DNA of 64,000 nt from a bacterium SCSIO 12696 (GTDB lineage: Bacteria; Pseudomonadota; Gammaproteobacteria; Pseudomonadales; Porticoccaceae). The translations under genes were made by a program, and so were the position numbers. This document shows positions 35,076-57,875 of this stretch, piece by piece; position 1 is the stretch's first letter; every line of letters begins with the position of its first letter. The notes beneath the pieces were generated by a model. It was not told the origin of the DNA. It saw nothing but the letters and a program-made list of their open reading frames with translations, and did no database searches. The DNA lies in contig CP073744.1 in the NCBI GenBank assembly GCA_024397955.1, forward strand, positions 1,674,001 through 1,738,000, given 5' to 3'.

Positions 35076-36269
35076 TCACAAAACCTTCGCCACAGACTCC
35101 GCAAAGTAATCCATATTGGCATCATTCAGTCCGGCCACGTTAATGCGGCTGGAGCCCACCATGTAGATGCTGAATTCGTCTTTCAGGCGCGCCACTTGCT
35201 CCGGGGTAATTCCCAGGAACGAGAACATGCCAAACTCCTTTTCGATAAAGCCAAAGTCGGCACCATTGCAGGCAGCATTAAGCTTGGCCACGGCTTGGGC
35301 TCGCAGGCCGTTAATGCGGTTGCGCATTTCTGCCACTTCGCCCTGCCATTGCTCGGTCAGTTCTGCAGACTCCAAAATGGTGGCCACAATGGCAGCACCG
35401 TGTGCTGGGGGCATAGACCAGATACCACGAGCAATATTAATCAGCTGGCTGCCAGCGGCTTCTGCTTTGTTACTGTCTTCGGCAATCACCAACAACAGGC
35501 CTATACGCTCACGGTAGAGGCCAAAGTTTTTCGAGCAGGAAACTGACAAAAACATTTCCTTGACTCGCTCACCCATCAGGCGCAGGCCTGCGGCGTCTTC
35601 GTCCAAGCCCACACCAAAGCCCTGGTAGGCCATATCGACGAAGGGTATCAGCCCTTTTTCCACACACAGGTCGGCGACTTGCGCCCACTGTTCCAGGTTC
35701 AGGTCAGCGCCACAGGGGTTGTGGCAGCAGGCGTGCAAAAGCACCACATCACCGGACTGGGCATCGCGCTCCAAAGTGCCGATCATGTCGGCAAAGGCAA
35801 CCGAGCAAGTGCTGCGGTCGTAGTAAGGGTATTCCTTGATGTTCAGCCCCGCTTCGCCAAACAACGGTACGTGGTTGGCCCAGGTAGGGTTACTCATCCA
35901 GATAGTGGCACCGGGCTTGGCGCGATTGATCAACTCACCACCGAGGCGCAATGCGCCGCAACCACCGGGCGCCTGAATAGAGGCAACTCGATTGGCCAGC
36001 AATGCCGGGTGGCCTTCACCCAGAGCCAGCTTGCGCATTTCGCTGTTGTACACGGGGTGGCCCGGGCCGCCGATATACGACTTGGTGGTCTCGGCATCTA
36101 TCCAGCGTCCTTCAGCGGCTTTTACCGACGCCAAAATAGGGGTTTCGCCAGTAGGTGTCTTATATACACCTACCCCCAAATCCACTTTCTTGGGGTTGTC
36201 GTCTTTCAGATATTGGCCCATCAGGCCAAGAATGGGGTCTTGAGGCAATATTTGCAGTGATTCAAACAT
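35076..36269 (-). CDS. Class I aromatic/aspartate aminotransferase (TyrB/AspC type)
   Basis: 397 residues, PLP fold type I. LGVGVYKTPTGETPIL, SYIGGPGHPVYN, LHACCHNPCGADLN, the cofactor Asp in PFVDMAYQGFG, and the Schiff-base Lys in SVSCSKNFGLYRERIG match the AspC/TyrB subgroup. Such enzymes transaminate Asp, Phe, Tyr and related acids with 2-oxoglutarate. It lies 84 nt downstream of paaX, so a role in turning phenylalanine into phenylpyruvate for the Paa route is inferred. Ordinary aspartate aminotransferase activity cannot be ruled out. Confidence 0.9.
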   Translation of the reverse strand: MFESLQILPQDPILGLMGQYLKDDNPKKVDLGVGVYKTPTGETPILASVKAAEGRWIDAETTKSYIGGPGHPVYNSEMRKLALGEGHPALLANRVASIQAPGGCGALRLGGELINRAKPGATIWMSNPTWANHVPLFGEAGLNIKEYPYYDRSTCSVAFADMIGTLERDAQSGDVVLLHACCHNPCGADLNLEQWAQVADLCVEKGLIPFVDMAYQGFGVGLDEDAAGLRLMGERVKEMFLSVSCSKNFGLYRERIGLLLVIAEDSNKAEAAGSQLINIARGIWSMPPAHGAAIVATILESAELTEQWQGEVAEMRNRINGLRAQAVAKLNAACNGADFGFIEKEFGMFSFLGITPEQVARLKDEFSIYMVGSSRINVAGLNDANMDYFAESVAKVL

Positions 36270-36353
36270 GGTCGTATCCCGGGGGAGCTGTGGGTCAAAT
36301 AAACAGGCGTATTGTAGTCGGGATTAACTGGCAAGCAAGGCTGAAAATGACTT

Positions 36354-37277
36354 TTACAGTCCACCAAAGCGGGAAAAGTAATCCGCCTCTGCATCCGGCA
36401 AACAGCCATTGGCAGTTTCCATGGATGTGATAGCAAAAGCCATGGCGTTTTCCTGAATCTGGCGGTACAAATCAGCTGTCATATCGTGCACTTCTTTAGC
36501 TTCCCAATCCGCGGGCAGCAATTCCTGGGGTAGTTCGGCATCCTTAAGCAACAACCGCCGATATTCGTGGATCAACAGAGTGCGCAACTGAAAACTGGCT
36601 TCCTGATCCAAGCCATCGCCTTTATTGAAGCGCTTGTGTAATGGCGCAAATTGAACCAAAAACTCCCGGTACTGCTGTTGCAGCTGCTCCAAATTCCAAC
36701 AGTCAAATACCCGCTGGCACAGCTGTTCTGCGGACAGGCCGTCGTCTGGCTGGCAGCGCATCACAACAACCTGTTCTTGCACCCCCAATTCAACCAGGGT
36801 TTCGTCCAAGGGCACGCGCTCCACACCGGGCTTTGCCATAACACCGGGAAACAAGTTGCCAAACCCCAACCAGCGCAACTCTTTGCGCAGCAGCTCCCGC
36901 TGTTTTTCCGCCAACTCGTTCAAGTACACAAATAACCAGTCGCCGCCATCCAGGCCGTGGTCTGCGGCGTAGATGCGCTGAGCGGCTTTTTGATAACGAC
37001 GCAGTCCAGAGGCCGTTAAACTGTAATAGCTTTTGCGGCCTATTTGCTCCGAAAAGAGCCAATCATCCTGCATCAGGCGGTAAACTGCCGTTCGCACCAA
37101 GCGCTGATTAAGGCCCAGTGGCTCCAACACCCGAATCACACTGCCCAACCATACGCTGTTGCCATGTTGGGAGATGGTGTCGCCAAATAGCGTCACCACC
37201 AAAGAGCCGGCGCGCATGGGGCGGCGCTGGCGAAATTGTTGCAATAGTTTGTTCAGTTGGCTGGCAGCGGTGGGCAC
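36354..37277 (-). CDS. paaX: PaaX-type repressor of phenylacetyl-CoA catabolism
   Basis: 307 residues from a GTG at 37277; this start leaves the same N-terminal length as E. coli PaaX. The N-terminal winged helix (SLVVTLFGDTISQHGNSVWLGSVIRVLEPLGLNQRLVRTAVYRLMQDDWL, then GRKSYYSLTASGLRRY) and the C-terminal FSRFGGL fit the family. PaaX binds phenylacetyl-CoA and releases paa promoters. It lies 27 nt after the Lrp-type gene and before the aminotransferase, suggesting one transcript. Candidate operators are at 43548 and 53866. Confidence 0.92.
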   Translation of the reverse strand: MPTAASQLNKLLQQFRQRRPMRAGSLVVTLFGDTISQHGNSVWLGSVIRVLEPLGLNQRLVRTAVYRLMQDDWLFSEQIGRKSYYSLTASGLRRYQKAAQRIYAADHGLDGGDWLFVYLNELAEKQRELLRKELRWLGFGNLFPGVMAKPGVERVPLDETLVELGVQEQVVVMRCQPDDGLSAEQLCQRVFDCWNLEQLQQQYREFLVQFAPLHKRFNKGDGLDQEASFQLRTLLIHEYRRLLLKDAELPQELLPADWEAKEVHDMTADLYRQIQENAMAFAITSMETANGCLPDAEADYFSRFGGL

Positions 37278-37304
37278 TGTGTCGGCTCTCGTCTATTGGG
37301 CTTG

Positions 37305-37763
37305 TTATCCAGTAATGGGCAGTTCGCCAGTGAGCTTGTTCTGGCGCATGGAAATCAAAGTACTCACCGAACGTACCCCGCGCAATACCAACAGCTGCGA
37401 CGACAAAAATTGCTCGTAAGCCTCCATATCCCCGGACACGATTTTGAGCAGGTAATCACACTGCCCGGTGACCGAGTGGCATTCCAGAATTTCCTTATTC
37501 TGATGCACACGCTCAAGAAACTTCTCAATGGTTTCCGGGTGGTGGTTTTCCAGGGTTACTTCGGCGAAGGCGATTACCTGCAGGCCCACCTTTTTCTGAT
37601 TGATGCGGGCGCTGTAACTCTCGATTACCCCCTCGTCCTGCAATCGCTTTACCCGCCGCCAACAAGGGGCAGGTGACAAAGAGATACGCTCTGCCAGGTC
37701 GCGATTAGAAAGTCGCCCGTCCAGCTGCAGCTCGTGAAGTATCTGGATATCGTACTTATCCAA
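37305..37763 (-). CDS. Lrp/AsnC-family transcriptional regulator
   Basis: 152 residues from a TTG at 37763, before which GGGAAGGG stands; the alternative ATG at 37826 adds a non-conserved 21 residues. DKYDIQILHELQLDGRLSNRDLAERISLSPAPCWRRVKRLQDEGVI is the AsnC helix-turn-helix. The remaining part (FLERVHQNKEILECHSVTGQCDYLLKIV) is the RAM effector domain. It is divergent from the E1/E2 genes, like BkdR of Pseudomonas. The spacer holds AAGAATATTGCTT (37797-37809), an Lrp-like near-palindrome. Its ligand is probably an amino acid. Confidence 0.9.
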   Translation of the reverse strand: MDKYDIQILHELQLDGRLSNRDLAERISLSPAPCWRRVKRLQDEGVIESYSARINQKKVGLQVIAFAEVTLENHHPETIEKFLERVHQNKEILECHSVTGQCDYLLKIVSGDMEAYEQFLSSQLLVLRGVRSVSTLISMRQNKLTGELPITG

Positions 37764-37911
37764 GAAATAACCCTTCCCTAAAAAACACTTAAAAGAAAGA
37801 ATATTGCTTAAATGCACTATTATCAAGCAACAACGAAAACAAATTTCCCACCTTACTATATAAAGTAGTTAGACCTTCGCCACAGCAATAGCCATTCAAC
37901 AAGGTCGATTT

Positions 37912-40038
37912 ATGTCTTCAGCGGAATTACAGGCTATGGACGCCACCACTGGTCCTCACCAACAAATTATCAGCGCCTACGACTGGCACCGGGTGGCTTA
38001 CTTGATTCTCGCCTCACGGACGATGGACGATGTTGAAGAACAACAGCTGGTACCGCAAAAACTGGTATTTAATCAGTTTTCCGCTCGCGGCCACGATATG
38101 GCCCAGATAATGCTGGGATCATTGCTCACCCATCCCCACGACGGTGCCACCGGTTATTACCGCTCACGCCCTTTTGTGCTGGCCCTGGGGGAAGACTTTG
38201 AAGTTTCTCTGGCTGGCCCATTAGCCCGCAGTGGCGGCTACAGCGATGGCCGCGATATCGGCGTAGTGTGCAACTACCCCAACGAAAAGCGCACTGGTGC
38301 CATGCTGTTCCCCATGTGTGGTGGCGTCGGCTCCCAGTATTCGCCCATTTCCGGCTGGGCCCAGTCTCTGCTTTACCACCAACACTCCTTAAACGACCAC
38401 AGCTATAAAGGCGCTATTGGGGTCTCCATGGGCGGGGACTCCTCCATGTCCACCAGCGGTTTTTGGGCGGCATTCAACATTTCCACCACCAACAACCTGC
38501 CTCACCTGTTTTATATCGAAGACAATGGCTACGGCATTTCCGTCCCCCAGGAAGTGCAGACCCCCGGTGGCGATCAGGTGGCCAATTTGGCGGCATACAA
38601 ACAGCTGGAGATTGTCGACGGCGATGGCTCAGACCCGCTGGAAGCAGCCACCAAAATCAAACAGGCGGTGGATTACGTGCGCAGCGGCAAAGGCACTGCC
38701 CTGCTGCGCCTGAAAGTACCCCGCTTGTGCGGCCATACTTTCCAGGATACCCAAACCTACAAGCCCGCGGATTTTATCGCCCACGAACAGGCTAATGACC
38801 CGCTGCCCAAGCTAAAAAACTTTCTGTTGCAGCAAAGCTTGATTAGCGAAGAGCAATGGTCAGCACTGGAAGACCAGGCAACTCAAGAAGTCCAAGAGGC
38901 GGTGGGAAAGGCCCTGCAACGCCCAGAGCCCAACACCACAGAAGTCACTCGTTACCGATACGAAGAGAAAGACGCAAACGGCAATCCGGAGATCCAACTG
39001 CGTGGAGGCCTGGCAGCTGCTGGCCACCAGTTCCCCACCTCCAGCGAACAGACCCGACCTGAGGGCGCTCGCCTGAATATGCTTACCGCCATTCGCAAAA
39101 CCCTGGATTACGAGCTGGACACCAACCCCAAGGTGCTGGTGTTCGGTGAAGACGTCGGCCCCAAGGGCGGTGTGCACGCTGCCACCCTGGGCCTGAGCGA
39201 CAAATACGGCAACGACCGGGTATTTGATACCAGCCTCTCAGAAGAAGGCATTATCGGCCGCTCCGTGGGTATGGCTCTGGCGGGGTTAATGCCGGTGCCG
39301 GAAATCCAGTTTCGCAAATACGCCGAACCGGCCGCCGAACAGCTGACCGACACCGGCATTATGCGCTGGCGCACCGCCAACCAATTTGCCGCCCCCATGG
39401 TCGTACGGGTACCCGGCGGTTTTGCCCGCCGCGGCGATCCCTGGCACTCCATGTGCGACGAGGTGGAGTGGGCTCACAAAGTGGGCTGGCAGCTAGCCAT
39501 GCCCTCCAACGCAGAAGATGCTGTGGGGCTTTTGCGTTCAGCGTTGAGAAGCAACAACCCCACCATATTCTTTGAGCACCGCTCCCTGCTGGATAACAGC
39601 TGGGCCCGCCGCCCCTACCCCGGCCACGAATTCGTTGTGCCCTTTGGCAAGGCCAAAACCCTGCTCAGCGGCAACAAACTCACAGTGGTGACCTGGGGCG
39701 CGATGGTGCAACGCTGTGAAGCGGCAGCGAGCCAATATCGCAACCAGGTTGAACTGATCGACCTGCGCACCATCCAGCCCTGGGACAAAGACGGCATTTT
39801 GGCCTCAGTGAAAAAAACCGGCCGCTGCCTGATTGTGCACGAAGACAATAAAACCGCCGGCTTTGGCGCCGAGATTGCCGCCACCCTCAGCGACGAACTG
39901 TTTTTTGACCTGGATGCTCCTATCCGTCGCCTGGCGATGCCCGACATTCCCAGCCCGCACAATATTCACCTGCTCAACGCCACTGTGCCCAGTGCGGAAA
40001 AAATCGCCGCGGAAATACAAGAACTGCTGGATATTTAA
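37912..40038 (+). CDS. Fused E1 alpha-beta subunit of a 2-oxoacid dehydrogenase complex
   Basis: 708 residues. Residues about 1-360 are the E1 alpha part, binding thiamine diphosphate (GGDSSMSTSGFWAAFNIS...FYIEDNGYGISVP, VDGDGSDP). Residues about 385-708 are the E1 beta part (VLVFGEDVGPKGGVHAATLGL, DTSLSEEGIIGRSVGMAL, YAEPAAEQL, VRVPGG, EHRSLLDN). The two are separate chains in classical branched-chain dehydrogenases. It decarboxylates a 2-oxoacid and passes the acyl group to E2. Adjacent PaaX and aminotransferase suggest phenylpyruvate; branched-chain oxoacids are the alternative. AAGG precedes the ATG. Confidence 0.9.
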   Translation: MSSAELQAMDATTGPHQQIISAYDWHRVAYLILASRTMDDVEEQQLVPQKLVFNQFSARGHDMAQIMLGSLLTHPHDGATGYYRSRPFVLALGEDFEVSLAGPLARSGGYSDGRDIGVVCNYPNEKRTGAMLFPMCGGVGSQYSPISGWAQSLLYHQHSLNDHSYKGAIGVSMGGDSSMSTSGFWAAFNISTTNNLPHLFYIEDNGYGISVPQEVQTPGGDQVANLAAYKQLEIVDGDGSDPLEAATKIKQAVDYVRSGKGTALLRLKVPRLCGHTFQDTQTYKPADFIAHEQANDPLPKLKNFLLQQSLISEEQWSALEDQATQEVQEAVGKALQRPEPNTTEVTRYRYEEKDANGNPEIQLRGGLAAAGHQFPTSSEQTRPEGARLNMLTAIRKTLDYELDTNPKVLVFGEDVGPKGGVHAATLGLSDKYGNDRVFDTSLSEEGIIGRSVGMALAGLMPVPEIQFRKYAEPAAEQLTDTGIMRWRTANQFAAPMVVRVPGGFARRGDPWHSMCDEVEWAHKVGWQLAMPSNAEDAVGLLRSALRSNNPTIFFEHRSLLDNSWARRPYPGHEFVVPFGKAKTLLSGNKLTVVTWGAMVQRCEAAASQYRNQVELIDLRTIQPWDKDGILASVKKTGRCLIVHEDNKTAGFGAEIAATLSDELFFDLDAPIRRLAMPDIPSPHNIHLLNATVPSAEKIAAEIQELLDI

Positions 40039-40047: not shown

Positions 40048-41304
40048 ATGCCCATGACCGATACCATCGACATCACCCTATCCGCCGAGCAACTGGAAGG
40101 CACCGAAGCCACTTTGAGTCAATGGCTGGTTGCGGTTGGCGACACCGTAGAGGAAAACCAGCCGGTGGCCGAGCTGGAAACGGATAAAGTGGCCATCGAA
40201 GTCGTGGCACCCAGCAGCGGTGTTATTGTGGAGCTGCTTGCCAAGGCAGGCACCGCCGTCGAGCCCGATCAGCTGCTGGGCAAACTCAACACCGATATCA
40301 CGGCTGCGGTGCGCCATGTTGCCAACGGCGAGCCGTTTGCAGAGGCCGCACACACAGAATCACCACAAGCCGAGAACAATCCGGCAAATAACGACCACTC
40401 TGCCCGCCACCTGGTAGGCCCAGCGGTACGCAAGCTGATCGCCGAGCACGAGCTCAATATCGACCATATTCGCGGCACTGGCCGAGGTGGGCGAGTCACA
40501 CGGGACGACGTAGTTGCCTACTTAAGCAGTGGCCTTGCCGAACAAGACAAGCGCAGCACCGCACCCAACAAATACCCCAGCTCAAAACCCGGCAGCCAGG
40601 GCATGGCCAGCCGCCTGGTGCCCCACAGCCAGATGCGCAAATCTATCGCCAGCCATATGGTGGAGAGCCTGCTGCACAAGTCCCCTCATGTGACTTCGGT
40701 ATTCGAAATGGACATGAGCAACCTGATTGAACACCGCAAGTGGCACAAAAAAGAGTACCAGGCAAAAGGCGTAAAACTCACTTTCACCGCCTACTTTCTG
40801 GCCGCCTGCGTGGAAGCCATGAAGGCAGTGCCACAGATGAATGCCCAATTCCACCAGGACGCTCTGGAGATTTTTGACGACATCAATATCGGCGTTGGCA
40901 CCGCCTTGGGGGGCGAAGGACTGGTGGTTCCCGTGGTTAGACAAGTGCAAAACCTGGAGCTGTTTGATATCGCCAAAGCCCTGAGCGAACAAACCAGTAA
41001 AGCTCGCAACGGCAAGCTGTCGCCAGCGGATATGCGCGGCGGCACCTTTACCCTCTCCAATCACGGGGTCAGCGGCAGTTTGCTGGCGGCACCCATTATT
41101 ATCAACCAACCTCAAGTGGCGATACTGGGCATTGGCAAACTGGAAAAACGGGTGGAGGTGGCGGAAGTCAATGGAGCGGATGAAATCCGCATCCGCCCCA
41201 AGTGTTACGTGTCATTGAGCATTGATCACCGCGCCGTGGATGCGTTTCAGACCAACGCCTGGCTCAGTAAATTTGTGGAAGTGATCGAAAATTGGGGGCA
41301 GTAA
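40048..41304 (+). CDS. Dihydrolipoamide acyltransferase E2
   Basis: 418 residues; an ATG two codons later is an equal start. Lipoyl domain (1-80) with the lipoylated Lys in ELETDKVAIEV (about K47), E3/E1-binding domain (about 122-160, GPAVRKLIAEHELNIDHIRGTGRGGRVTRDDV) and the catalytic domain (about 185-418). The active-site motif reads IDHRAVDAF, where most relatives have DHRxxDG. It transfers the acyl group to CoA, here possibly giving phenylacetyl-CoA. No E3 gene is next to it; a housekeeping Lpd must serve. Confidence 0.92.
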   Translation: MPMTDTIDITLSAEQLEGTEATLSQWLVAVGDTVEENQPVAELETDKVAIEVVAPSSGVIVELLAKAGTAVEPDQLLGKLNTDITAAVRHVANGEPFAEAAHTESPQAENNPANNDHSARHLVGPAVRKLIAEHELNIDHIRGTGRGGRVTRDDVVAYLSSGLAEQDKRSTAPNKYPSSKPGSQGMASRLVPHSQMRKSIASHMVESLLHKSPHVTSVFEMDMSNLIEHRKWHKKEYQAKGVKLTFTAYFLAACVEAMKAVPQMNAQFHQDALEIFDDINIGVGTALGGEGLVVPVVRQVQNLELFDIAKALSEQTSKARNGKLSPADMRGGTFTLSNHGVSGSLLAAPIIINQPQVAILGIGKLEKRVEVAEVNGADEIRIRPKCYVSLSIDHRAVDAFQTNAWLSKFVEVIENWGQ

Positions 41305-41337: not shown

Positions 41338-43431
41338 TTACCAAACCCTCTCCACCCCCACAAACAGCGAGCGGGGTTCTCCGGGGAAATAGCGAAAGCC
41401 GCTGAACGACGTAAAGTCAGCGCGCTCTGCGTAACGCCGGTCAGTGGCGTTGAGCAGCCGCGCCCGCACAGTCCAATCCGAAGACAATTGCCAGGACGCA
41501 CGAATATTCAGCAGCCGATGGCCTGGGTATGTGCGCAAATTTTCCGGGTCCAGAAAGTAACTGCCAGCCACTACCCACTCCGCCTCCAGACGCATGTTTT
41601 CAGCATCCCCCCAGCCGAGACGTAAGCTGCCAAAACGCCGCGGCGCCGTATCCACATCATTGCCGTTGATATTGATGCCAGACAAAATCTGGTCAGAGTC
41701 GTAGCGATGGCGGGCAACGCTGGCATTAGCGGACACATCAAACCCCGCCCCCAGCTGAGCGCTGATTTCTGCCTCAATGCCGTGATGGCTGGTGCGGCTG
41801 TTATCCCGGTTAAAAAAATCCGAGTCCCGAAAAATCACGTTGTCTTTGCGCAAGCGGTACAGAGCCAACTCGTAGCGAAGGCGAGGGAAATCGCCACGCA
41901 CCCCCAACTCCAAACTGTTTGCCTCTTCGGAGTCCAGCTCAGCCACCTGTTGAGCACGCTGCAAGCGATAGAGTTCAGCCGCCTGTGGGGCACGAAAGCC
42001 GTGAGTCCAATTGGCAAAAACCAATTGCCCTTCCGCCAGCTGATAGCTGGCACCCAACTTGGGAGAGAGATTGGTAAAAGTGTCGCTGCGATCCTCTGGG
42101 CGGCTGTAACGGCAGCCACCAAAGCCACACACAGAGCCGTCTTCACGGGTGCGCCCCGCGGGCAGAAAATTGTCGTAATCGTAACGCATGGACTCCAGGC
42201 GCAAGCCCGCTTGCAAAGCCACTTTGGCAGTCAAGTTCCAGTCTACAGACCCGAACACTGCCGCCATTTGTGCATTCACCTGGTAATCGTAGTGACGGCC
42301 CACCGGAATGGTTTCCTGCAAGAAAGCCGAACCTTGGGTCGGGGCATCCTGGGACTGACGCAGCCAGGCGTCGGTAAATTCCAGGTCGGCGCCCACGCCC
42401 AGCACCAAATCACTATCGCGGTTCCAATAACGCACACTCTGTACACCAATACTGGCCTGGCCGTTTTCCTCTAACGGGTCACCGGGCAAGAAATGTTGCA
42501 GAAAATCCATACGGGTGTAACGCAAATAAGGCGTAACCACCGTGCTGCCGCTCTCCAATTCCTGCTCAAAGCGCAGCCACAGCCTTGCAGAAGAGGCATC
42601 GCGAAACGCCTCGGGTGTTGGGTTGGTTCTCGACAAGGCTTCCGACAGATAAGCGCCTTCGCCGGTGATAAAGCCCGCGGTTTCCTGGCTGAGGTTGGTT
42701 AAAGACAGACCAGCGGTTGCCTGCCAATCGCCGAGCTCGGTACGCCGATGCAAGCTGAGTTTTTGTTGTTCATAACCCGCCTGATCCCGATAGCCGGAAT
42801 CGTGGCTCAGGGTTAACTTGGCTCCCCAATCTTCGCCGGATTGCCGCCACTGAATACGGCCAAAATGATTGGCCCCAGCTTCCACACTAAATCGGCCACC
42901 GGGCTCGCCACCAAAGTCCTGAGTAATCACATTCACCACACCGTGCAGCGCGTTAGAACCGTGCACCGCAGTGCCTGGCCCGCGCTGTACCTCGACACGA
43001 AACGCCTGTTCAGTGTGCGACTCAAACAACTCGTTGACATTGCAAAAACCCGCCGCCCGCAGGGGGATGCCGTCTTCGGTAATCGAAAACGAACCACAGG
43101 CACCGGCACCGGTTAATACCGGTGAGCGAATCGCCGGCAAGTACTCCTGACCATTGCCACGGTGTAAATTCACCCCGGGCACCCTCAACAAAGCCTGCTG
43201 AATATGGCTTTGGGACACAAACGGGATATTGGTGAGAGTACTGATACTGTGTGGACTTTCGAGGCGCGAATCATCAATACGACGGGCCACAGACACCACC
43301 TCTTCAGCCGCCTTCTCAACCGTCTCTTGCGCCGCTTGTACACCTTGAGTGGAACAACAGACTGCCGAAACCAAAACAATGCCGAAAGCGGCTACGGGGG
43401 TGTTTTTGTGCACATCAAAACTACTGCTCAT
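41338..43431 (-). CDS. TonB-dependent outer-membrane receptor
   Basis: 697 residues with an N-terminal signal (about 1-34). The plug domain has VPGVNLHRGNG, SITEDGIPL and RVEVQRGPGTAVHGSNALHGVVNVIT. The beta-barrel ends with a TonB C-terminal box (FPGEPRSLFVGVERVW, terminal aromatic residue). It takes up a scarce ligand across the outer membrane using TonB. The place between E2 and paaZ hints at an aromatic compound or peptide, but siderophore uptake cannot be excluded from sequence. It is divergent from paaZ. Confidence 0.92.
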   Translation of the reverse strand: MSSSFDVHKNTPVAAFGIVLVSAVCCSTQGVQAAQETVEKAAEEVVSVARRIDDSRLESPHSISTLTNIPFVSQSHIQQALLRVPGVNLHRGNGQEYLPAIRSPVLTGAGACGSFSITEDGIPLRAAGFCNVNELFESHTEQAFRVEVQRGPGTAVHGSNALHGVVNVITQDFGGEPGGRFSVEAGANHFGRIQWRQSGEDWGAKLTLSHDSGYRDQAGYEQQKLSLHRRTELGDWQATAGLSLTNLSQETAGFITGEGAYLSEALSRTNPTPEAFRDASSARLWLRFEQELESGSTVVTPYLRYTRMDFLQHFLPGDPLEENGQASIGVQSVRYWNRDSDLVLGVGADLEFTDAWLRQSQDAPTQGSAFLQETIPVGRHYDYQVNAQMAAVFGSVDWNLTAKVALQAGLRLESMRYDYDNFLPAGRTREDGSVCGFGGCRYSRPEDRSDTFTNLSPKLGASYQLAEGQLVFANWTHGFRAPQAAELYRLQRAQQVAELDSEEANSLELGVRGDFPRLRYELALYRLRKDNVIFRDSDFFNRDNSRTSHHGIEAEISAQLGAGFDVSANASVARHRYDSDQILSGININGNDVDTAPRRFGSLRLGWGDAENMRLEAEWVVAGSYFLDPENLRTYPGHRLLNIRASWQLSSDWTVRARLLNATDRRYAERADFTSFSGFRYFPGEPRSLFVGVERVW

Positions 43432-43601: not shown

Positions 43602-45647
43602 ATGAATTACCAAAGTTATGTGTGTGGCCACTGGCACACGGGCACTGAGCCAGGGCAGCAAGTGTTCCATGCCATTACCGGTGAATTTCTGGGGCATATT
43701 TCCAGTGCCGGCATCGACTTTAAGGCGGTGGCGGAATACGCCCGCAGTGTGGGCGGCCCGGCTCTGCGGGCGATGACCACTCACGAGCGTGCCACGGCCC
43801 TGAAACAACTTGGCCTTCACCTGCTGAGCGTCAAACAGAAGTTTTACGAACTGTCTGCCGCCACCGGCGCCACCAAAGCCGATAGCTGGATCGACATTGA
43901 AGGCGGCATCGGTACCATGCTGAGCATCAGCTCCATGGTGCGCCGGGAATTACCCAACGAAACCTTTGCAGTGGAAGGCGACACCGAGCGCCTGTCGGCC
44001 AACGGCACCTTTGTGGGCCGTCATATTCTGGTGCCCAAAGAGGGCCTGTCGCTGCACATCAACGCGTTTAACTTCCCGATTTGGGGGATGTTGGAAAAAA
44101 TCGCCCCATCCCTGGCAGCCGGGGTTCCAGTGATTGTGAAGCCTGCCACCGCTTCTGCCTACCTCACCGAGTTAATGGTGCGGGAGATCATCGACACCGG
44201 CTTTTTGCCCGAAGGCTCCATCCAATTAATTTGCGGCTCCACCGGCGATCTGCTGGATCACCTCATCGAGCAAGACAGCGTCACCTTTACCGGCTCCGCC
44301 AAAACCGGAAAGATGCTGAAAACCCACCCCAACATTATCGAAAATTCCATTCCCTTCAACATGGAAGCGGACTCGCTGAACTGCTGCATTCTCGGTGAAA
44401 CCGTTAGCGAGGACAGCGACGAGTTCAGCCTGTTCATCAAAGAAGTGGGGCGGGAAATGACCACCAAAGCAGGGCAAAAATGCACCGCCATCCGCCGCAT
44501 TCTGGTGCCGCGTAATAAAGTGGGGGTGGTTTCCGAAGCCCTGAAAAATCGCCTTGCCAAAACGGTGATTGGCAACCCGGCCACCGAAGGTGTGCGTATG
44601 GGTGCACTGGTGGGCTGCGACCAGGTAAGCGACACCTGGGACGCGGTAAAAACCTTGCAGCAATCCTGCGACACGCTGTTTGGCGGTGACCGCGATTTTG
44701 AGGTTGTTGGAACCGACAAAACCCAAGGGGCGTTTTTCCCACCCACCCTGCTGTACTGCGACCAGCCATTAACCACAGCCACGCCTCACGAAGTGGAAGC
44801 CTTTGGCCCAGTCAGTACCCTGATGCCCTACGACAATCTGAAACAGGCCATTCAGATTTCCAAACTGGGCAAGGGCTCGCTGGTCAGCTCCGTGTTTACC
44901 TACGACAACACAGAAGCCCGGGAAGCGGTGTTGGGCACCGCCGCCTACCACGGCCGCATGGTGATTATTAACCGCGACTGCGCTGGGGAATCTACCGGCC
45001 ACGGTTCCCCACTGGCTCAGATGGTTCACGGCGGCCCCGGTCGCGCCGGTGGCGGTGAAGAGCTGGGCGGTATCCGCTCGGTAAAACATTATATGCAGCG
45101 CACCGCCCTGCAGGGCTCGCCAACTACCCTTGCGGCTATCACCAACGAATATATGCCGGGCGCGGCGATCAACCAGACCGAAGCCCACCCATTCACCAAA
45201 TACTTTGAAGAAATTCAGCCCGGCGACAGCCTGATTACCCACCGTCGTACAGTGACCGAAGCGGATATCGTCAATTTTGGCTGTCTGTCCGGCGACCACT
45301 TCTACGCCCACTTCGACGAAACCGCCGCCGCCGAATCCCTGTTCGGCAAGCGCGTGGCTCACGGTTACTTTGTGCTGTCTGCCGCCGCCGGTTTGTTCGT
45401 TTACCCCGGCGTCGGCCCGGTATTGGCCAATTATGGCCTCAACAACCTGCGTTTTATTGAGCCGGTGGGTATTGGTGACACCATTCAGGCACGACTCACC
45501 TGCAAACAGAAGATCAAAAAGGACAAACGCCCGGATGATCTCAAAGCCACCGGTGTTGTAGAGTGGGATGTGGAAGTCACCAACCAGGAGGGGGTTGCAG
45601 TTGCTATTTACAGCATCCTGACGCTGGTAGAAAGAAAAGAACCGTGA
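43602..45647 (+). CDS. paaZ: Bifunctional oxepin-CoA hydrolase/semialdehyde dehydrogenase PaaZ
   Basis: 681 residues, as in E. coli. N-terminal aldehyde dehydrogenase (about 1-520) with [32 protein letters not shown] and the nucleophile in [16 protein letters not shown]. The C-terminal MaoC-like hydratase (about 540-681) has [30 protein letters not shown] and [13 protein letters not shown]. It opens the oxepin-CoA ring and oxidises the resulting aldehyde to 3-oxo-5,6-dehydrosuberyl-CoA. It is the first gene of paaZ-G-H-J. Confidence 0.96.
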
Positions 45648-45696: not shown

Positions 45697-46479
45697 ATGA
45701 GCTTCACCACCATTACCTACACCGTTGAAGACAACGTTGCGGTTCTGGCACTTAACCGCCCGGAGCGCCTGAACAGTTTTAACGCCGACATGCACACGGA
45801 ATTGCGCGAAGCACTGAAATGCGTGGAAAACGACCCGTTGGTGCGCTGCCTGGTGCTCACCGGGGCCGGCCGGGGGTTTTGCGCCGGGCAGGATTTGAGC
45901 GACCGCAACGACACCGAAGTACCGGACCTGGGCGACTCCATCGACAAAAACTACAACCCGCTGATTCGCAAACTGCTTGGCCTGCCCAAACCGGTGGTGT
46001 GTGCAGTGAATGGCGTGGCCGCCGGTGCTGGTGCCAGCCTCGCCCTGGCGTGCGACATCGTAGTGGCCGCCGAGAGCGCCTATTTTGTGCAGGCGTTTTG
46101 CAATATCGGTCTGATCCCAGACTCTGGCAGCACCTGGCACCTGCCCCGCGCCGTCGGTTTGCCCCGCGCCAAAGGCCTGGCCCTGTTGGGAGAAAAGTTG
46201 CCAGCCAAAAAGGCTGAAGAGTGGGGCATGATCTGGAAGTGTGTAGAAGACGACAACCTGATGGAGGACGTGATGGCCATGGCCCGCAATCTGGCCAGCA
46301 AACCCACCAAAGCTCTGGGCATGATTAAAGCCGCTCTGCACGAATCCACCGCCAACAGCCACCACCTTCAGCTGGAAGTGGAAAAAGAGTACATGCGCAA
46401 AGCCGGCCGCACCAAAGATTTCCGCGAAGGCGTAGCGGCGTTTATGGAAAAGCGGAAGCCCCTGTTTAAGGGGGAATAG
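45697..46479 (+). CDS. paaG: 1,2-epoxyphenylacetyl-CoA isomerase PaaG
   Basis: 260 residues, crotonase family. LNRPERLNSFNADMHTELREAL, GAGRGFCAGQDLSDRN, KPVVCAVNGVAAGAGASLALACD and LGEKLPAKKAEEWGMIWK closely match E. coli PaaG rather than PaaF. It isomerises ring-1,2-epoxyphenylacetyl-CoA to oxepin-CoA and can shift double bonds later in the pathway. No separate paaF lies in this window; PaaG or an unlinked hydratase must cover that step. Confidence 0.93.
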   Translation: MSFTTITYTVEDNVAVLALNRPERLNSFNADMHTELREALKCVENDPLVRCLVLTGAGRGFCAGQDLSDRNDTEVPDLGDSIDKNYNPLIRKLLGLPKPVVCAVNGVAAGAGASLALACDIVVAAESAYFVQAFCNIGLIPDSGSTWHLPRAVGLPRAKGLALLGEKLPAKKAEEWGMIWKCVEDDNLMEDVMAMARNLASKPTKALGMIKAALHESTANSHHLQLEVEKEYMRKAGRTKDFREGVAAFMEKRKPLFKGE

Positions 46480-48093: not shown

Positions 48094-49299
48094 ATGACCG
48101 AAGCCTATATCTGCGACGCAGTACGCACACCCATTGGCCGCTACGGTGGCAGCCTGTCATCCGTGCGCGCCGACGACCTGGGTGCGGCACCGATCAAAGC
48201 CCTTATGGAACGCAACGCCTGTGTGAATTGGGCTCAGGTGGACGATGTGTTTTACGGCTGCGCCAATCAGGCCGGGGAAGACAATCGTAATATTGCTCGC
48301 ATGAGTTCGCTGCTGGCAGGCCTGCCCATTGATGTTCCGGGCACCACTCTCAACCGTTTGTGCGGCTCCGGCATGGATGCGGTGGGCATGGCCGCTCGAT
48401 CCATTAAATCCGGCGAAGCGGATCTGATTATCGCCGGTGGCGTTGAACAAATGTCCCGCGCACCTTTTGTGTTGGGTAAGGCCAATAACGGATTTGACCG
48501 CAACCAGCAGATGTTCGACACCACCATGGGCTGGCGCTTTATTAACAAACTGATGAAAAACCAATACGGTGTGGACTCCATGCCAGAAACCGCCGAGAAC
48601 GTGGCGGAGGATTACAACATCTCCCGGGAAGATCAGGACGCCTTTGCCCTGCGCAGCCAACAACGCACCGCCGCCGCCCAGGCCAACGGTATTTTTAACG
48701 ACGAAATCGTCCCGGTAAAGGTGCCTCGACGCAAGCAAGACGATTTAATTGTCGATACCGACGAACACCCTCGAGCCAGTACCACCGCTGAAGGCTTGGC
48801 CAAATTACCAACTCCCTTTCGCGATGGCGGCACCGTAACCGCAGGCAATGCGTCTGGTATTAATGACGGCGCCTGCGCACTGTTGATCGCCTCAAAAGCT
48901 GCGGTGGAAAAATACGGCCTGACGCCAAAAGCCAAAATCGTCGCCATGGCCACCGCCGGAGTGGAGCCTCGGATTATGGGCATTGGCCCGGTACCCGCTA
49001 CTCGTAAAGTGCTAGCCAAAGCGGGACTGCCCCTTGAGCAAATGGACGTGATCGAACTCAACGAAGCCTTTGCCGCCCAAGGGTTGGCCTGTATGCGCGA
49101 ACTGGGATTGGCAGACGACGCCGAGCACGTCAACCGCAACGGCGGCGCTATTGCACTTGGCCACCCGCTCGGTATGAGCGGCGCTCGGCTAGTGACGACA
49201 GCGATGTATCAATTACAGGGAGATGGTGGACAGTATGCGCTGTGCACCATGTGTATTGGGGTTGGACAGGGAATTGCGATGATAATTGAGAGAGCATGA
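48094..49299 (+). CDS. paaJ: 3-oxoadipyl-CoA/3-oxo-5,6-dehydrosuberyl-CoA thiolase PaaJ
   Basis: 401 residues. The active-site Cys is in [36 protein letters not shown] (about C90), with the C-terminal His and Cys in [18 protein letters not shown] and TMCIGVGQG. The N-terminal [30 protein letters not shown] is characteristic of PaaJ/PcaF. It releases acetyl-CoA and succinyl-CoA at the end of the pathway. Only 12 nt separate it from paaH. The paa set breaks off here and resumes at paaA 4.6 kb later. Confidence 0.95.
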
Positions 49300-53506: not shown

Positions 53507-53530
53507 GCCTAACAGCTTGCTTAAGAAGCC
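53507..53530 (-). other. attC-like core before the lectin-like gene
   Basis: On the minus strand GGCTTCTTAAGCAAGCTGTTAGGC ends in GTTAGGC, a perfect GTTRRRY core, with an L'-like TTAAGCAAGC before it. The gene start follows 15 nt later after AAGGAG, the usual spacing of a gene cassette. The far arm was not identified. Confidence 0.45.
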
Positions 53531-53865
53531 TTTTGTTTTATAACAATAATTATCGGGATACTCGATTAATATATGATCGAGCCGTAATAACCCTTGCACT
53601 CAGCCGGTCGACGAAGGAAAAAATATACTGCTTGAATACAACGCACTGGAAAGGACTTTCAGACACCTCACCACTCCTTCGGTCAATCCGTGAGCAAACG
53701 CTTGCTCTACACTGATACCCATACCATAGATCTATACACCGGCAGCTTCAAGGCAACTTATCGTTAACTCCATTGCACTCAATATGGATTCCCAGCTCTG
53801 CGAATGTGTCAAAAAGTACGCGAGCCGAACTCTACCTAGGGTGAAGCAACTTTAGACCGCTCAAA
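53531..53865. other. Non-coding stretch before paaA
   Basis: About 335 bp with no convincing gene on either strand. A short palindrome, GAGCAA-ACGC-TTGCTC, lies at about 53692-53707. This probably includes the original upstream DNA of paaA plus the island border. No repeats or att duplication were recognised. Confidence 0.35.
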
Positions 53866-53908
53866 AATGATACATATTTGCAATAGATTGTATATTTTTT
53901 GTATCATT
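53866..53908 (+). promoter_or_regulatory. paaA promoter with AATGATACA/TGTATCATT inverted repeat
   Basis: Perfect 9-bp arms AATGATACA (53866-53874) and TGTATCATT (53900-53908) are separated by 25 bp. Inside lie TTGCAA (-35, 53878-53883) and TATCAT (-10, 53902-53907) with 18 bp between them. The right arm, with its T-run, is shared with the paaZ upstream region. It is a good candidate PaaX operator that would block the polymerase. Confidence 0.6.
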
Positions 53909-53935
53909 AAGGAATGCCACGCCCCGGAGCCACCT

Positions 53936-54907
53936 ATGCCTAACAGCGAAGCCAGCCTTGAACAACTGGAAGCAGAGCTGAACAAAGAGTTTCAGGCCCG
54001 TATCGATGCTGAAGAGAAGATCGAACCCAAAGACTGGATGCCAGAGAAGTATCGTAAAACCGTATTGCGGCAGATGTCTCAGCACGCCCATTCGGAGGTA
54101 ATTGGCATGCAGCCGGAGGGTAACTGGATTACCCGCGCACCCAGTTTGCACCGCAAGATTGTTTTATTGGCCAAGGTGCAAGACGAGGCCGGTCATGGCT
54201 TGTACCTGTACAGCGCGGCCGAAACCCTGGGGGCCACCCGCGAGGAGTTGGTGCAGCTGATGCACGAGGGCAAAGCCAAATATTCCTCCATCTTTAATTA
54301 CCCAACTCTCACCTGGGCAGATATCGGAGCTATTGGTTGGCTGGTGGACGGCGCCGCCATCGTTAACCAGGTGGCGTTGCAGCGCACTTCTTATGGTCCC
54401 TACTCCCGCTCCATGATTAGGATTTGTAAGGAAGAGAGTTTTCACCAACGCCAGGGTTACGAAATTATGTTGAAGCTGGCCCAGGGCTCGCCAGATCAGA
54501 AGGCCATGGCACAGGATGCGTTAAATCGGTTTTGGGAACCGTCGCTGATGATGTTCGGCCCTACTGATGCGGATTCACCCAACTCTGCTCAATCCATGAC
54601 GTGGAAAATCAAACGCAAATCAAACGATGAATTGCGCCAGGCGTTTGTGGACCAGACCATCAAACAAATTGAAGTGTTGGGGTTGGAAATGCCCAGCAAA
54701 AACATTCAGTGGAACGAAGAACGAGGCCACTACGACTTTGGCGAGTTGAACTGGGACGAGTTTTTTGCAGTGATTAAAGGCAATGGCCCTTGTAATCGCC
54801 AGCGTTTAGCCCACCACAAAAAAGCCCACGACAACGGTGAGTGGGTGCGGGAAGCGGCCAAAGCTTACGACGCCAAGAAAAAAGCTCGTGCCGAAAAAGC
54901 AGCATAA
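53936..54907 (+). CDS. paaA: Ring-1,2-phenylacetyl-CoA epoxidase catalytic subunit PaaA
   Basis: 323 residues from the ATG at 53936 (GGAG before it; a longer frame starts inside the operator and is rejected). Di-iron ligands of the ferritin-like fold are visible: [18 protein letters not shown] (E and H) and [13 protein letters not shown] (E and H), with further Glu and His in [19 protein letters not shown]. With PaaC it oxygenates phenylacetyl-CoA to the 1,2-epoxide, fed by PaaE. First gene of paaABCDE, with its own promoter. Confidence 0.97.
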
Positions 54908-54918
54908 CTACCTACCAC

Positions 54919-54995
54919 GTCATTGCGAGCGCAGCGAAGCAATCTGGTAAACGCATCACGAGATCGCCACAGTCGCTCCGCGACTTCGCAATGAC
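54919..54995. repeat. Full CATTGCGA-type dispersed palindrome between paaA and paaB
   Basis: GTCATTGCGAGCGCAGCGAAGC on the left is mirrored by GACTTCGCAATGAC on the right, with AATC...GATCGCC inner arms. This is the family found as half copies at 10259 and 11298. It lies inside the operon and should form a stable hairpin in the mRNA. Confidence 0.85.
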
Positions 54996-55014
54996 GGACG
55001 AGAGAGTAAAGACT

Positions 55015-55296
55015 ATGAGCAATATGCCCCTGTTTGAAGTTTTTGTGCGCTCCAAGCGCGGTTTGGATCACACTCACTGTGGAAGCCTGCACGCAGAGAA
55101 CGCCGAGCAGGCACTGGAATACGCCCGCGACGTGTACACCCGCCGTTCTGAAGGGGTGAGCATTTGGGTGGTGAAAGCCAGCGATATTACCGCATCGCAA
55201 GAAAGCGACCGGGACAGTTTTTACGACCCGATGGACGATAAGCCTTATCGACATGCAACGCACTACCAGTTGCCCGATGAAGTTAACAATATGTAA
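55015..55296 (+). CDS. paaB: Phenylacetyl-CoA epoxidase subunit PaaB
   Basis: 93 residues from the ATG at 55015 (E. coli PaaB 95). LFEVFVRSKRGLDHTHCGSLHAENAEQALEYARDVYTRRSEGVSIWVVKASDI matches the family well. PaaB bridges PaaA and PaaC dimers in the epoxidase complex. A dispersed repeat separates it from paaA by about 107 nt. Confidence 0.95.
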   Translation: MSNMPLFEVFVRSKRGLDHTHCGSLHAENAEQALEYARDVYTRRSEGVSIWVVKASDITASQESDRDSFYDPMDDKPYRHATHYQLPDEVNNM

Positions 55297-55303: not shown

Positions 55304-55369
55304 GTCATTCCCGCGCAGGCGGGAATCCGCGGTTTCGAAGAAATGGATCCCCGCCTTCGCGGGGATGAC
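55304..55369. repeat. GTCATTCCCGC-type dispersed palindrome between paaB and paaC
   Basis: GTCATTCCCGCGCAGGCGGGAATCC and GGATCCCCGCCTTCGCGGGGATGAC form two local hairpins and a global inverted pair. This is the widespread intergenic repeat family; a short copy lies at 35040-35065. It ends 16 nt before the paaC start. Confidence 0.85.
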
Positions 55370-55385
55370 AAGTAAGGCAAATAAC

Positions 55386-56150
55386 ATGACAAATACAAAC
55401 AATCAAGCCATCGCCGACTACGCCATTCGCTTGGCAGACGATTCGCTCACCTTGGGCCATCGCCTTTCCGAATGGTGTTCCAATGGCCCGTTTCTGGAAG
55501 AGGATATCGCGCTGATTAACGTGGCGCTGGATTACGTGGGCCGAGCCAGAATGCTTTACGCCTACGCCGCAGAAACTGAAGGCAAAAGCCGAACAGAGGA
55601 TGATATTTGTTACCTGCGCGACGCTCGCGACTACCGCAACCTGTTAATCAACGAGCTGCCCAAAGGCGATTTTGCATTCACCATGGTTCGCCAGTTTTTT
55701 GTGGATACCTTCAATTTGCTGTTTTACACCGAACTGCAAAACAGCAGTGACGATACGCTGGCCGCCACTGCTGGCAAAGCCATTAAGGAAACCACTTACC
55801 ACTTGCGCCGCAGTAAAGACTGGGTCGTACGCTTGGGCGACGGCACAGAGGAAAGCCACCGCCGCTGCCAACAAGCCATCGACGAGCTTTGGGACTACGT
55901 TACCGAATTGTTTGATATGGACGAACTGGAAAATCAGCTTGTTGGCCAGGGTATCGCCGTAAACCGTGCAGCGCTGAGAAGCCAATGGCAACAGATCGTT
56001 GAAGATACTGTCAGTGAGGCAACCTTGACTCTACCAGACCATGATATCGCCATTCGCGGTGGCCGCACCGGCATTCACACTGAACACCTGGGCTATTTGC
56101 TGGCGGAGTTGCAGTACGTTCAAAGAGCTTATCCAGGTAATACCTGGTAA
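55386..56150 (+). CDS. paaC: Phenylacetyl-CoA epoxidase structural subunit PaaC
   Basis: 254 residues from the ATG at 55386 (AAGG upstream). Ferritin-like helical protein related to PaaA but lacking most iron ligands. LADDSLTLGHRLSEWCSNGPFLEEDIALINVALDYVGRARMLY, ETTYHLRRSKDWVVRLGDGTEESHRR and GIHTEHLGYLLAELQYVQRAYPG are typical. It forms the stable core of the epoxidase with PaaA. Confidence 0.95.
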   Translation: MTNTNNQAIADYAIRLADDSLTLGHRLSEWCSNGPFLEEDIALINVALDYVGRARMLYAYAAETEGKSRTEDDICYLRDARDYRNLLINELPKGDFAFTMVRQFFVDTFNLLFYTELQNSSDDTLAATAGKAIKETTYHLRRSKDWVVRLGDGTEESHRRCQQAIDELWDYVTELFDMDELENQLVGQGIAVNRAALRSQWQQIVEDTVSEATLTLPDHDIAIRGGRTGIHTEHLGYLLAELQYVQRAYPGNTW

Positions 56151-56198
56151 ACCTGACCACCACTCCTCCCTGTGCGAGGAATGATGGGAGAAGAAATA

Positions 56199-56744
56199 AT
56201 GACCACACTGATCCCAACCGTAAGCGCCGAACAACTTGAACGCGACCAATGCCGTGCCAACCCCGCGACGGCTGCCATTTGGAATTTGCTGGATAAAGTG
56301 CATGACCCGGAAGTGCCGGTATTGTCACTGTGGGATTTGGGTGTGTTGAGAAACGTGGAGAAACAGGGCAACAAAATTACCGTTACCCTCACCCCCACGT
56401 ACAGTGGCTGCCCGGCTATCAACACCATGGCGGAGGACGTACAAACAGCACTGAGCAGTGCCGGCTATAACGAAGTAGACATTCGCAACCAGCTGGCTCC
56501 CGCCTGGACCACAGACTGGCTGAGCCCACAGGGCCGTCGCAAGTTAAGGGAATACGGCATTGCCCCACCTCAGCACGCCAGCAGCGATAAAGCCTCGCTG
56601 CTTACGGAAGAGCCCGTGGTACCCTGCCCTCAGTGCGACTCCACCAATACCGTAAAAATCAGCGAGTTTGGCTCAACCGCCTGTAAGGCGCTGTACAAAT
56701 GCAAAAGCTGCCAAGAGCCGTTTGATTATTTTAAATGCCTGTAG
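56199..56744 (+). CDS. paaD: PaaD, MIP18-type maturation factor of the epoxidase system
   Basis: 181 residues from the ATG at 56199 (GGGAGAAG upstream). N-terminal MIP18/DUF59 domain (WNLLDKVHDPEVPVLSLWDLGVLRNV, TPTYSGCPA) and a C-terminal zinc ribbon (CPQCDSTNTVKI, CKALYKCKSCQEPFDYFKC). PaaD is thought to help insert the Fe-S cluster into PaaE. It is 48 nt after paaC. Confidence 0.95.
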   Translation: MTTLIPTVSAEQLERDQCRANPATAAIWNLLDKVHDPEVPVLSLWDLGVLRNVEKQGNKITVTLTPTYSGCPAINTMAEDVQTALSSAGYNEVDIRNQLAPAWTTDWLSPQGRRKLREYGIAPPQHASSDKASLLTEEPVVPCPQCDSTNTVKISEFGSTACKALYKCKSCQEPFDYFKCL

Positions 56745-56780
56745 TGACTATTCTGAAGAGATTGTAACCAGAGTAATGCC

Positions 56781-57875
56781 ATGACTGATACCCAGTTCTA
56801 TCCATTAAAAATCGCCGCGGTTGTGCCAGAAACCGATTCTGCGGTACAGCTGGTGTTTGATGTGCCTGCCAACCTGGAAGAAAAGTACCAGTTTATTCAA
56901 GGCCAATATCTAACTCTGAAAGCGGGCATTGATGGTAAAGAGGTACGCCGCTCTTACTCCATCTGTTCTGCCGTTGGCGACTCAGAATTGCGCGTAGGCA
57001 TTAAAAAAATCAACGGCGGTGTTTTTTCCACCTTCGCCAATGAGAAATTAAAAGCCGGTGACACGCTGGACGTGATGCCCCCCCAAGGCAGCTTCCACAC
57101 CGAGCTAAACCCAGCCAATGCCAAAAAATATATGTGCATTGCCGCTGGCTCGGGCATCACCCCCATGTTGTCGATTATCAAAACCACTCTGGCTACTGAA
57201 CCCAATAGCCAGGTCACTCTGATTTACGGCAATCAGCGCACCAACACCATACTGTTCCGCGAAGAATTGTCGGACGTAAAAAATGCCTATATGGATCGCT
57301 TTCAGTGGATCAATATTCTCAGCCGCGAAGAACACGATGCAGAAGTGCTGCACGGGCGTATCAACAATCGTAAAGGTGGCGAGCTACAAGCCAAAAGACT
57401 CATAAAAATAAGCAGCTTTGACGACGTGTTTTTGTGTGGCCCGGAATCGATGATTTCGGAAGTGTCTCGGGGCCTGCGCAGCGAAGGCATTGCCGAGGCC
57501 AACATTCACTACGAACTGTTTGGTTCCTCTGCCGAAGCCGCGGCAGAAGCAGTACAAAAACATCACCAGCGCGCGGAGAAATACGGCGAGCTGGTGAGTA
57601 ACGTGACATTAATGTCTGGCGGCCGCCGTATTCACTTCGACTTAAGTGCCGATGGCGAAAACTTGCTGGACGCGGGTATCGATAACGGCGTCGATTTACC
57701 GTTCTCCTGCAAAGGCGGTGTGTGCGCCACCTGCAAAGCCAAATTAGTTGAGGGAGAAGTGGAAATGGATTTGGCCCACGGCCTGGAACAAGAGGAAATC
57801 GACGATGGCTTTATTCTCACCTGCCAAGCCCACCCGGTCAGTAATAAAGTGGTAGTGGACTTCGATCAACACTGA
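56781..57875 (+). CDS. paaE: PaaE, ferredoxin reductase of the phenylacetyl-CoA epoxidase
   Basis: 364 residues. FAD domain (RRSYSICSAVGDSELRVGIKKINGG), NADPH domain (AAGSGITPMLSIIKTTLA, FLCGPESMI) and a C-terminal plant-type [2Fe-2S] ferredoxin (LPFSCKGGVCATCKAKL, then FILTCQAHP). It passes electrons from NADPH to the PaaA di-iron centre. It ends the paaABCDE operon, and the window has no paaK, paaF or paaI behind it. Confidence 0.96.
   Translation: MTDTQFYPLKIAAVVPETDSAVQLVFDVPANLEEKYQFIQGQYLTLKAGIDGKEVRRSYSICSAVGDSELRVGIKKINGGVFSTFANEKLKAGDTLDVMPPQGSFHTELNPANAKKYMCIAAGSGITPMLSIIKTTLATEPNSQVTLIYGNQRTNTILFREELSDVKNAYMDRFQWINILSREEHDAEVLHGRINNRKGGELQAKRLIKISSFDDVFLCGPESMISEVSRGLRSEGIAEANIHYELFGSSAEAAAEAVQKHHQRAEKYGELVSNVTLMSGGRRIHFDLSADGENLLDAGIDNGVDLPFSCKGGVCATCKAKLVEGEVEMDLAHGLEQEEIDDGFILTCQAHPVSNKVVVDFDQH

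Follow-up and report, generated by a model that had tools for sequence, protein, structure and literature searches.

Direct formation of phenylacetyl-coenzyme A (phenylacetyl-CoA) from phenylpyruvate has been described or suggested in two bacterial settings. In Streptomyces pristinaespiralis, a pyruvate-dehydrogenase-like complex, PglB/PglC, has been suggested to convert phenylpyruvate into phenylacetyl-CoA for phenylglycine biosynthesis (PMC7089894, PMC10685826), and in Phaeobacter the enzyme Ior1 carries out the same conversion directly, with PaaK dispensable for tropodithietic acid (PMC5577590, PMC7497051). Phenylacetate catabolism is taken to begin with the ligase PaaK, and a 2026 survey of the Paa pathway across 6,536 genomes starts from PaaK, the word 'phenylpyruvate' being absent from its main text (PMC13186573). 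Here, we analyze a stretch of 64,000 nucleotides (hereafter the window; contig CP073744.1 of assembly GCA_024397955.1, positions 1674001-1738000, G000:C1 in our numbering) from the marine bacterium SCSIO 12696, a relative of Porticoccus, in which a fused alpha-beta E1 and an E2 of a 2-oxoacid dehydrogenase stand between a transaminase gene and a cluster of paa genes.

We propose, with a probability of about 0.85, that this E1/E2 pair would constitute a phenylpyruvate dehydrogenase complex that supplies the Paa pathway. A first-pass annotation of the same DNA had already suggested that phenylpyruvate is oxidatively decarboxylated directly to phenylacetyl-CoA, and this suggestion, in which the substrate is inferred, is now supported by the absence of PaaK, by a separate operon for branched-chain 2-oxoacid dehydrogenase (BCKDH) in the same genome, by the co-occurrence and linkage of E1 and PaaA, and by the confinement of PaaK absence to E1-holding genomes among the PaaA genomes of the order sample described below. 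In the proposed route, the TyrB-type transaminase would convert phenylalanine to phenylpyruvate, which E1 would decarboxylate on thiamine diphosphate, loading the lipoyl arm of E2 with the resulting phenylacetyl group. Transfer to CoA by E2 would then yield phenylacetyl-CoA, CO2 and NADH, avoiding both free phenylacetate and the ATP cost of the ligase, with an E3 presumably supplied from elsewhere in the genome (one is encoded in the bkd operon). Ring oxidation and opening would fall to PaaABCDE, PaaG and PaaZ, with PaaH and PaaJ participating in the beta-oxidation. PaaX is known to respond to phenylacetyl-CoA and would here sense the product of the complex, while the Lrp-type protein would probably sense the amino acid.

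Entrances to the Paa pathway in the source genome

The source genome is a single contig of 2.93 Mb with a completeness of 99.3%. Window genes were identified by NCBIfam and Pfam profile scans scored against the family cut-offs, and the row that the first-pass annotation had read (tyrB-paaX-lrp, E1, E2, paaZGHJ, paaABCDE) was recovered complete and in that order, including the E1 as one 708-aa alpha-beta fusion followed by a protein with lipoyl, E3-binding and acyltransferase domains. The cluster encodes PaaA, B, C, E, G and Z, which places it in the Paa (phenylacetyl-CoA epoxidase) pathway. The same annotation had noticed that no ligase gene lies within the row, and had called for a search of the whole genome for paaK: the ligase-free interval extends to the entire assembly, where the PaaK profile TIGR02155 has no match at E<=0.001, and a PaaK encoded elsewhere in this genome was rejected on this ground. 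The same profile search of 14 control genomes gave matches in 10, of which 1 was above cut-off. Phenylalanine hydroxylase (Biopterin_H) likewise has no match in the source genome.

Could phenylacetyl-CoA be made from phenylacetate by a ligase other than PaaK, or from phenylpyruvate by a 2-oxoacid:acceptor oxidoreductase, while E1/E2 does something else? The genome holds material for such a route, namely an oxidoreductase alpha/beta pair of that kind and seven AMP-binding places (PF00501) in six frames: a FadD-like protein, an acetate-CoA ligase, a 3-(methylthio)propionyl-CoA-ligase-like protein, Aas, a long protein far below cut-off and, next to a polyketide synthase, a carrier-protein enzyme of 1571 residues. 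None of the six lies in the window or beside paa genes, the paa rows contain E1/E2 and no ligase, and none of the 49 order-sample genomes with PaaA and no E1 lacks PaaK, so that other ligases seem not to substitute for it. We regard this explanation as highly improbable.

Five hits to TPP_enzyme_C (PF02775) bear on decarboxylase or Ior-type entrances. Two are acetolactate synthases above cut-off, the third is a thiamine-diphosphate enzyme resembling ScyA and acetolactate synthase, below all cut-offs, and the fourth is the 2-oxoacid:acceptor oxidoreductase beta subunit, below its cut-offs. No indolepyruvate oxidoreductase (Ior-type) alpha subunit was recognized among the four of five hits scanned further, the 662-aa frame being excluded and TIGR03336 not run; family scans of the source genome left out frames of 945, 662 and 667 aa. 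On the identities of these four hits, an indolepyruvate oxidoreductase or a phenylpyruvate decarboxylase was rejected as the true route. The third hit (L104:5041-6870, at about 863 kb of G000:C1; about 609 residues) shares its gene row with a TonB receptor. Judged by gene content, the Paa pathway of the source organism would have E1/E2 as its sole recognizable dedicated entrance.

The closest enzymological alternative is that the substrates of E1/E2 are branched-chain (or other aliphatic) 2-oxoacids and that its place beside the paa genes is accidental. Relatives of the E1 carry the public names 2-oxoisovalerate, pyruvate or alpha-ketoacid dehydrogenase, the best-matching solved beta subunits include those of 2-oxoisovalerate dehydrogenases, and some active-site positions match BCKDH. 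Yet the same genome encodes a complete Bkd operon (C1:1547000-1559000) with E1alpha, E1beta, a two-lipoyl E2 and E3 in a row, its E1alpha matching bacterial 2-oxoisovalerate dehydrogenase near full length (497 bits) and carrying the N-terminal PF12573. It also holds a leucine-degradation-type cluster comprising a carboxyltransferase, a biotin carboxylase, a gamma-carboxygeranoyl-CoA-hydratase-like protein (below cut-off), an acyl-CoA dehydrogenase and a 3-hydroxy-3-methylglutaryl-CoA lyase. The window complex resembles Bkd in its E1 domain set and lipoyl E2, and differs in its fused E1, in which PF12573 was not found, in its own conserved residues and in its paa context, while the genome's Bkd has separate alpha and beta subunits. 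The co-occurrence and linkage of E1 are moreover specific to paa genes across differing gene orders. A misplaced branched-chain complex is therefore unlikely, because a separate Bkd operon exists in the same genome, and this candidate was rejected; we consider it improbable.

At the protein level, E1 carries E1_dh, Transket_pyr and Transketolase_C, the domains of a 2-oxoacid dehydrogenase of the alpha-beta E1 type, and E2 has the complete lipoyl, E3-binding and acyltransferase set, with an E3 encoded in the genome's own Bkd operon. Positions D/E176, N205, Y207, H275, E444 and H512, which we take from BCKDH and pyruvate dehydrogenase structures to be those binding thiamine diphosphate/Mg or acting in catalysis, are retained in all 32 aligned orthologs. 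Also invariant among these 32 are G137, V139, G140, R450, R468-K469-Y470-A471 and W511. Against the BCKDH of its own genome, E1 differs in the aligned stretches MCGGVGSQY/ISGPLTTHY, GRSVG/GTAIG and EIQFRKYA/EIQFADYI, some of which presumably line the substrate pocket, as in BCKDH structures. There is a faint hint that a roomier E1 loop would suit a phenyl group.

Distribution of the fused E1, PaaA and PaaK

A sample of 390 genomes of the order (the order sample) was searched for E1, PaaA and PaaK, PaaA matches being listed to E 1e-60 and PaaK matches to 1e-50. E1 orthologs form a discrete group, present in 10 of the 390 genomes at >=65% identity (one of them truncated), everything else being at <=46%, while PaaA and PaaK were above cut-off in 58 and 54 genomes, respectively. 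PaaA occurs in 9 of the 10 genomes with E1 versus 49 of the 380 without (Fisher p 1.8e-7), and PaaK accompanies PaaA in 49/49 genomes without E1 versus 5/9 with it (p 3e-4); these p-values overstate independence, because the four genomes that hold E1 and PaaA and lack PaaK (G000, G520, G594 and G730) belong to one family, and three of them to one genus. In a class sample, E1 was found in one of 369 genomes, the source genome itself, and is too rare there for statistics. In the tenth E1 genome of the order sample (G646, L149:10384-11112), E1 is truncated to a frame of 242 residues, next to which lies a fragment of a copper amine oxidase, and neither PaaA nor PaaK is among its listed matches. 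Because of this truncation and these absences, E1 seems to decay where the Paa pathway is gone.

Linkage of E1 to paa genes exceeds chance. In the order sample, E1 and paaA lie 4.1-31.2 kb apart in all nine genomes holding both. We further compared the neighborhoods of the best 80 of 477 E1-encoding stretches from a species-genome scan (the locus set), in which the closest named E1 relative of the source organism is Porticoccus sp. W117 (87% identity). Unsupervised clustering of neighbors ranks, after E1 itself, E2 (71 of the 80 loci), an Lrp relative (39, adjoining E1), PaaZ (20), PaaG (17), PaaX and PaaJ (15 each), a PaaY-type hexapeptide protein (14) and PaaA (10, nine of them labelled via the PaaA of the window). 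Within the DNA compared, a paa gene is present at 34 of the 80 loci under identity thresholds that we set ourselves, paaX being alone in five of the 34, and 10 of the 80 have a TyrB relative in the vicinity of E1. Gene order varies: E1-E2 precede paaZ in Aliikangiella and Lysobacterales, precede paaX and paaG-H-J in Marinomonas, and stand beside paaABCDE in a metagenome-assembled genome (MAG) of Colwellia. In MOLA455, E1, E2, tyrB, paaZ, paaG, paaJ and paaA-E form one row with overlaps or gaps of <=59 bases (longest frames), and PaaK was not found by profile search in either sample. In the sister genus g274 (G548, G748), paaK adjoins paaZ and E1 was not found; between the two types of cluster it looks as if one entry enzyme had been swapped for the other. 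In Marinomonas sp. MED121 (G021, L151:11631-12812), paaA and paaJ are separated by genes for a HEC-01A-type AAA ATPase and an AraC-type regulator. paaK stands beside paaA in several other Marinomonas and was not found in MED121.

This linkage also bears on the identity of the substrate. The complex might act mainly on 4-hydroxyphenylpyruvate or indolepyruvate, or equally on all three arylpyruvates, phenylalanine then not being the main source: a substrate pocket is not resolvable by sequence alone, and TyrB-type transaminases accept every aromatic amino acid. The established substrate of the linked PaaABCDE is phenylacetyl-CoA, however, and E1 tracks both PaaA and the loss of PaaK, which leaves this possibility very unlikely and favors phenylpyruvate.

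PaaK status was then scored in 50 of the 80 loci, comprising 28 isolate-like ones chosen blind to their neighbors (27 searched, L040 left out) and 22 MAGs with a nearby paa gene or paaX. PaaA was above cut-off in 47 of the 49 searched genomes, a figure that leans upward because the 22 MAGs were chosen for nearby paa genes or paaX. PaaK was absent from 19 of these 47 (G038 counting as PaaK-less despite a 221-bit match below cut-off). Within the isolate-like subset, PaaA was found in 26 of 27 genomes, and five of the 26 have no PaaK above cut-off: Porticoccus W117, Aliikangiella G2MR2-5, Aliikangiella marina, MOLA455 and Marinomonas MED121. The two samples share five genomes with the same coordinates (G001/G520, G005/G626, G009/G442, G015/G730 and G022/G744, of which G520 is Porticoccus W117 and G730 is MOLA455). 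On a quick E1 tree, which came with a long-branch warning, a minimum of 11 changes in PaaK status is required, six of them forced by well-supported branches. Gain or loss of the ligase was therefore repeated among E1 holders, so far as absences in MAGs are real and not gaps. Sedimenticola selenatireducens (G024, L076) has an E1 ortholog and PaaK-type ligases but no PaaA match, and no phenylacetate genes were found among the five neighboring frames scanned; its E1 may perhaps serve an anaerobic phenylacetyl-CoA route.

Several observations weigh against phenylpyruvate dehydrogenase as the entrance, besides the narrow taxonomic base of the four PaaK-less genomes in the order sample. PaaK is retained in 28 of the 47 genomes of the locus set with E1 and PaaA, and many of the PaaK-less genomes in this wider set are MAGs, whose absences may be gaps. 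Among the 42 loci with >=9 kb on both sides of E1, 16 have a paa gene and 26 have none under the same identity thresholds. In the source genome, the other CoA ligases and the 2-oxoacid:acceptor oxidoreductase could in principle contribute phenylacetyl-CoA, and the window cluster is without the PaaF and PaaI genes found in relatives, with no room for them in 45647-48094. As a general description, the bypass of PaaK put forward in the first-pass annotation is too restrictive: in the 28/47 and 5/9 genomes that keep PaaK along with E1 and PaaA, the complex would serve as an additional entrance.

Gene row and neighboring features

The features of the cluster are collected in Table 1. The profile match of PaaA begins at residue 42 of the frame, and its true start probably lies downstream of the annotated frame start.

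Table 1. Features of the Paa cluster in the window (positions counted from the first nucleotide of the window)
Feature	Position	Strand	Evidence
TyrB/AspC-type transaminase of aromatic amino acids, forming phenylpyruvate from phenylalanine	35076..36269	-	NF006719, 550 bits (cut-off 377); PF00155
PaaX, repressor of paa genes	36354..37277	-	TIGR02277, 269.1 bits (cut-off 264.55); PaaX, PaaX_M and PaaX_C domains
Lrp/AsnC-family regulator, divergent from E1	37305..37826	-	AsnC_trans_reg and HTH domains; 137 bits, below Lrp equivalog cut-off of 233
Fused alpha-beta E1, proposed phenylpyruvate dehydrogenase E1	37912..40038	+	PF00676 (E1_dh), PF02779 (Transket_pyr), PF02780 (Transketolase_C); one 708-aa frame
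E2, proposed phenylacetyl transferase	40048..41304	+	One lipoyl PF00364, E3-binding PF02817, acyltransferase PF00198
TonB-dependent receptor between E2 and paaZ	41338..43431	-	NCBIfam/Pfam scans
PaaZ, ring-opening hydrolase and dehydrogenase	43602..45647	+	TIGR02278, 993 bits (cut-off 562.8)
PaaG isomerase	45697..46479	+	TIGR02280, 387.8 bits (cut-off 345.15)
PaaH 3-hydroxyacyl-CoA dehydrogenase	46537..48081	+	TIGR02279, 692.4 bits (cut-off 669.4)
PaaJ/PcaF 3-oxoadipyl-CoA thiolase	48094..49299	+	NF006551 and TIGR02430, both above cut-off
Unrelated genes between paaJ and paaA	49497..53599	-	Block interrupting the row
PaaA, epoxidase catalytic subunit	53867..54907	+	TIGR02156, 516.6 bits (cut-off 280); match from residue 42
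PaaB (longest frame)	54841..55296	+	TIGR02157, 134.5 bits (cut-off 85.45); match from residue 63
PaaC	55365..56150	+	TIGR02158, 299.4 bits (cut-off 133.35)
PaaD	56172..56744	+	TIGR02159, 208.8 bits (cut-off 108.15)
PaaE reductase	56781..57875	+	TIGR02160, 446.4 bits (cut-off 420.8)

The genus relatives G520 and G594 have neither the TonB receptor nor the block at 49497-53599; an additional PaaG-like hydratase is encoded between their paaZ and paaG, and the distance from E2 to paaZ is about 220 bases or less in both. Porticoccus W117 has in addition a PaaI-type thioesterase between paaH and paaJ. Within the block of the window, an AIPR-domain protein (50882-52915, minus strand) matches an AbiU defence model at 486 bits, and the other genes are small and unrelated (GFA, SnoaL-like, acetyltransferase-like and lectin-domain-like). 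Outside the cluster, an ArsH-type protein (32036-32788, minus strand; 333.6 bits, cut-off 292.25) is encoded between purH and purD.

In the window, the motif AAAATGATACA has only two occurrences with <=1 mismatch, at 43548-43558 (before paaZ) and 53864-53874 (at paaA), neither of them preceding E1. This count was reached in 45 of 100 shuffles with one mismatch allowed, and exact copies were absent from the 12 relative loci scanned; the two sites may be due to chance, and no regulon is claimed. An Rfam scan gave no matches.

Significance and comparison with known systems

We think it likely that the fused-E1 phenylpyruvate dehydrogenase represents an unnamed class of 2-oxoacid dehydrogenase and a widespread way into the Paa pathway, which would have replaced PaaK in several lineages whose members would use phenylalanine but not free phenylacetate. 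The group occurs in Pseudomonadota and, via MAGs, in Gemmatimonadota, Calditrichota and Acidobacteriota, and 7,999 of 8,000 candidate proteins scored E<=1e-100 to the E1, not all of which need be orthologs. If this is true, surveys anchored on PaaK miss such bacteria, and a large set of proteins now labelled as 2-oxoisovalerate, pyruvate or alpha-ketoacid dehydrogenases would gain a specific and testable function. In some bacteria, Paa would then be a dedicated phenylalanine pathway, with ATP-free activation and a gain of NADH, in which free phenylacetate is not leaked and growth on phenylacetate does not occur.

In the literature searched, which covered few subscription journals, no report was found of a lipoyl-type phenylpyruvate dehydrogenase as an entrance to the Paa pathway; the E2 dealt with in PMC9239090 is a different one. 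The cluster shares PaaABCDE, G, Z, H, J and PaaX with the canonical, PaaK-entered pathway as surveyed (PMC13186573), and differs from it in lacking PaaK and in having as its entrance a dehydrogenase complex linked to a transaminase. Ior1, as described in Phaeobacter, offers the same direct step from phenylpyruvate to phenylacetyl-CoA feeding Paa enzymes, but is an unrelated enzyme of the indolepyruvate-oxidoreductase type, with no lipoyl E1/E2/E3 complex. PglB/PglC, likened here by function, share the proposed reaction and the enzyme class (E1 alpha/beta), and differ in having separate alpha and beta subunits and in serving an antibiotic-precursor pathway. In that setting, the Paa pathway competes for the product, whereas in the organism of the window it would be the outlet. 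Taken together, a phenylpyruvate dehydrogenase and a bypass of PaaK are each known separately, and the apparent novelty lies in their combination, in which a fused-E1 complex dedicated to this step would recur as the way into the Paa pathway and in some cases be the only one.

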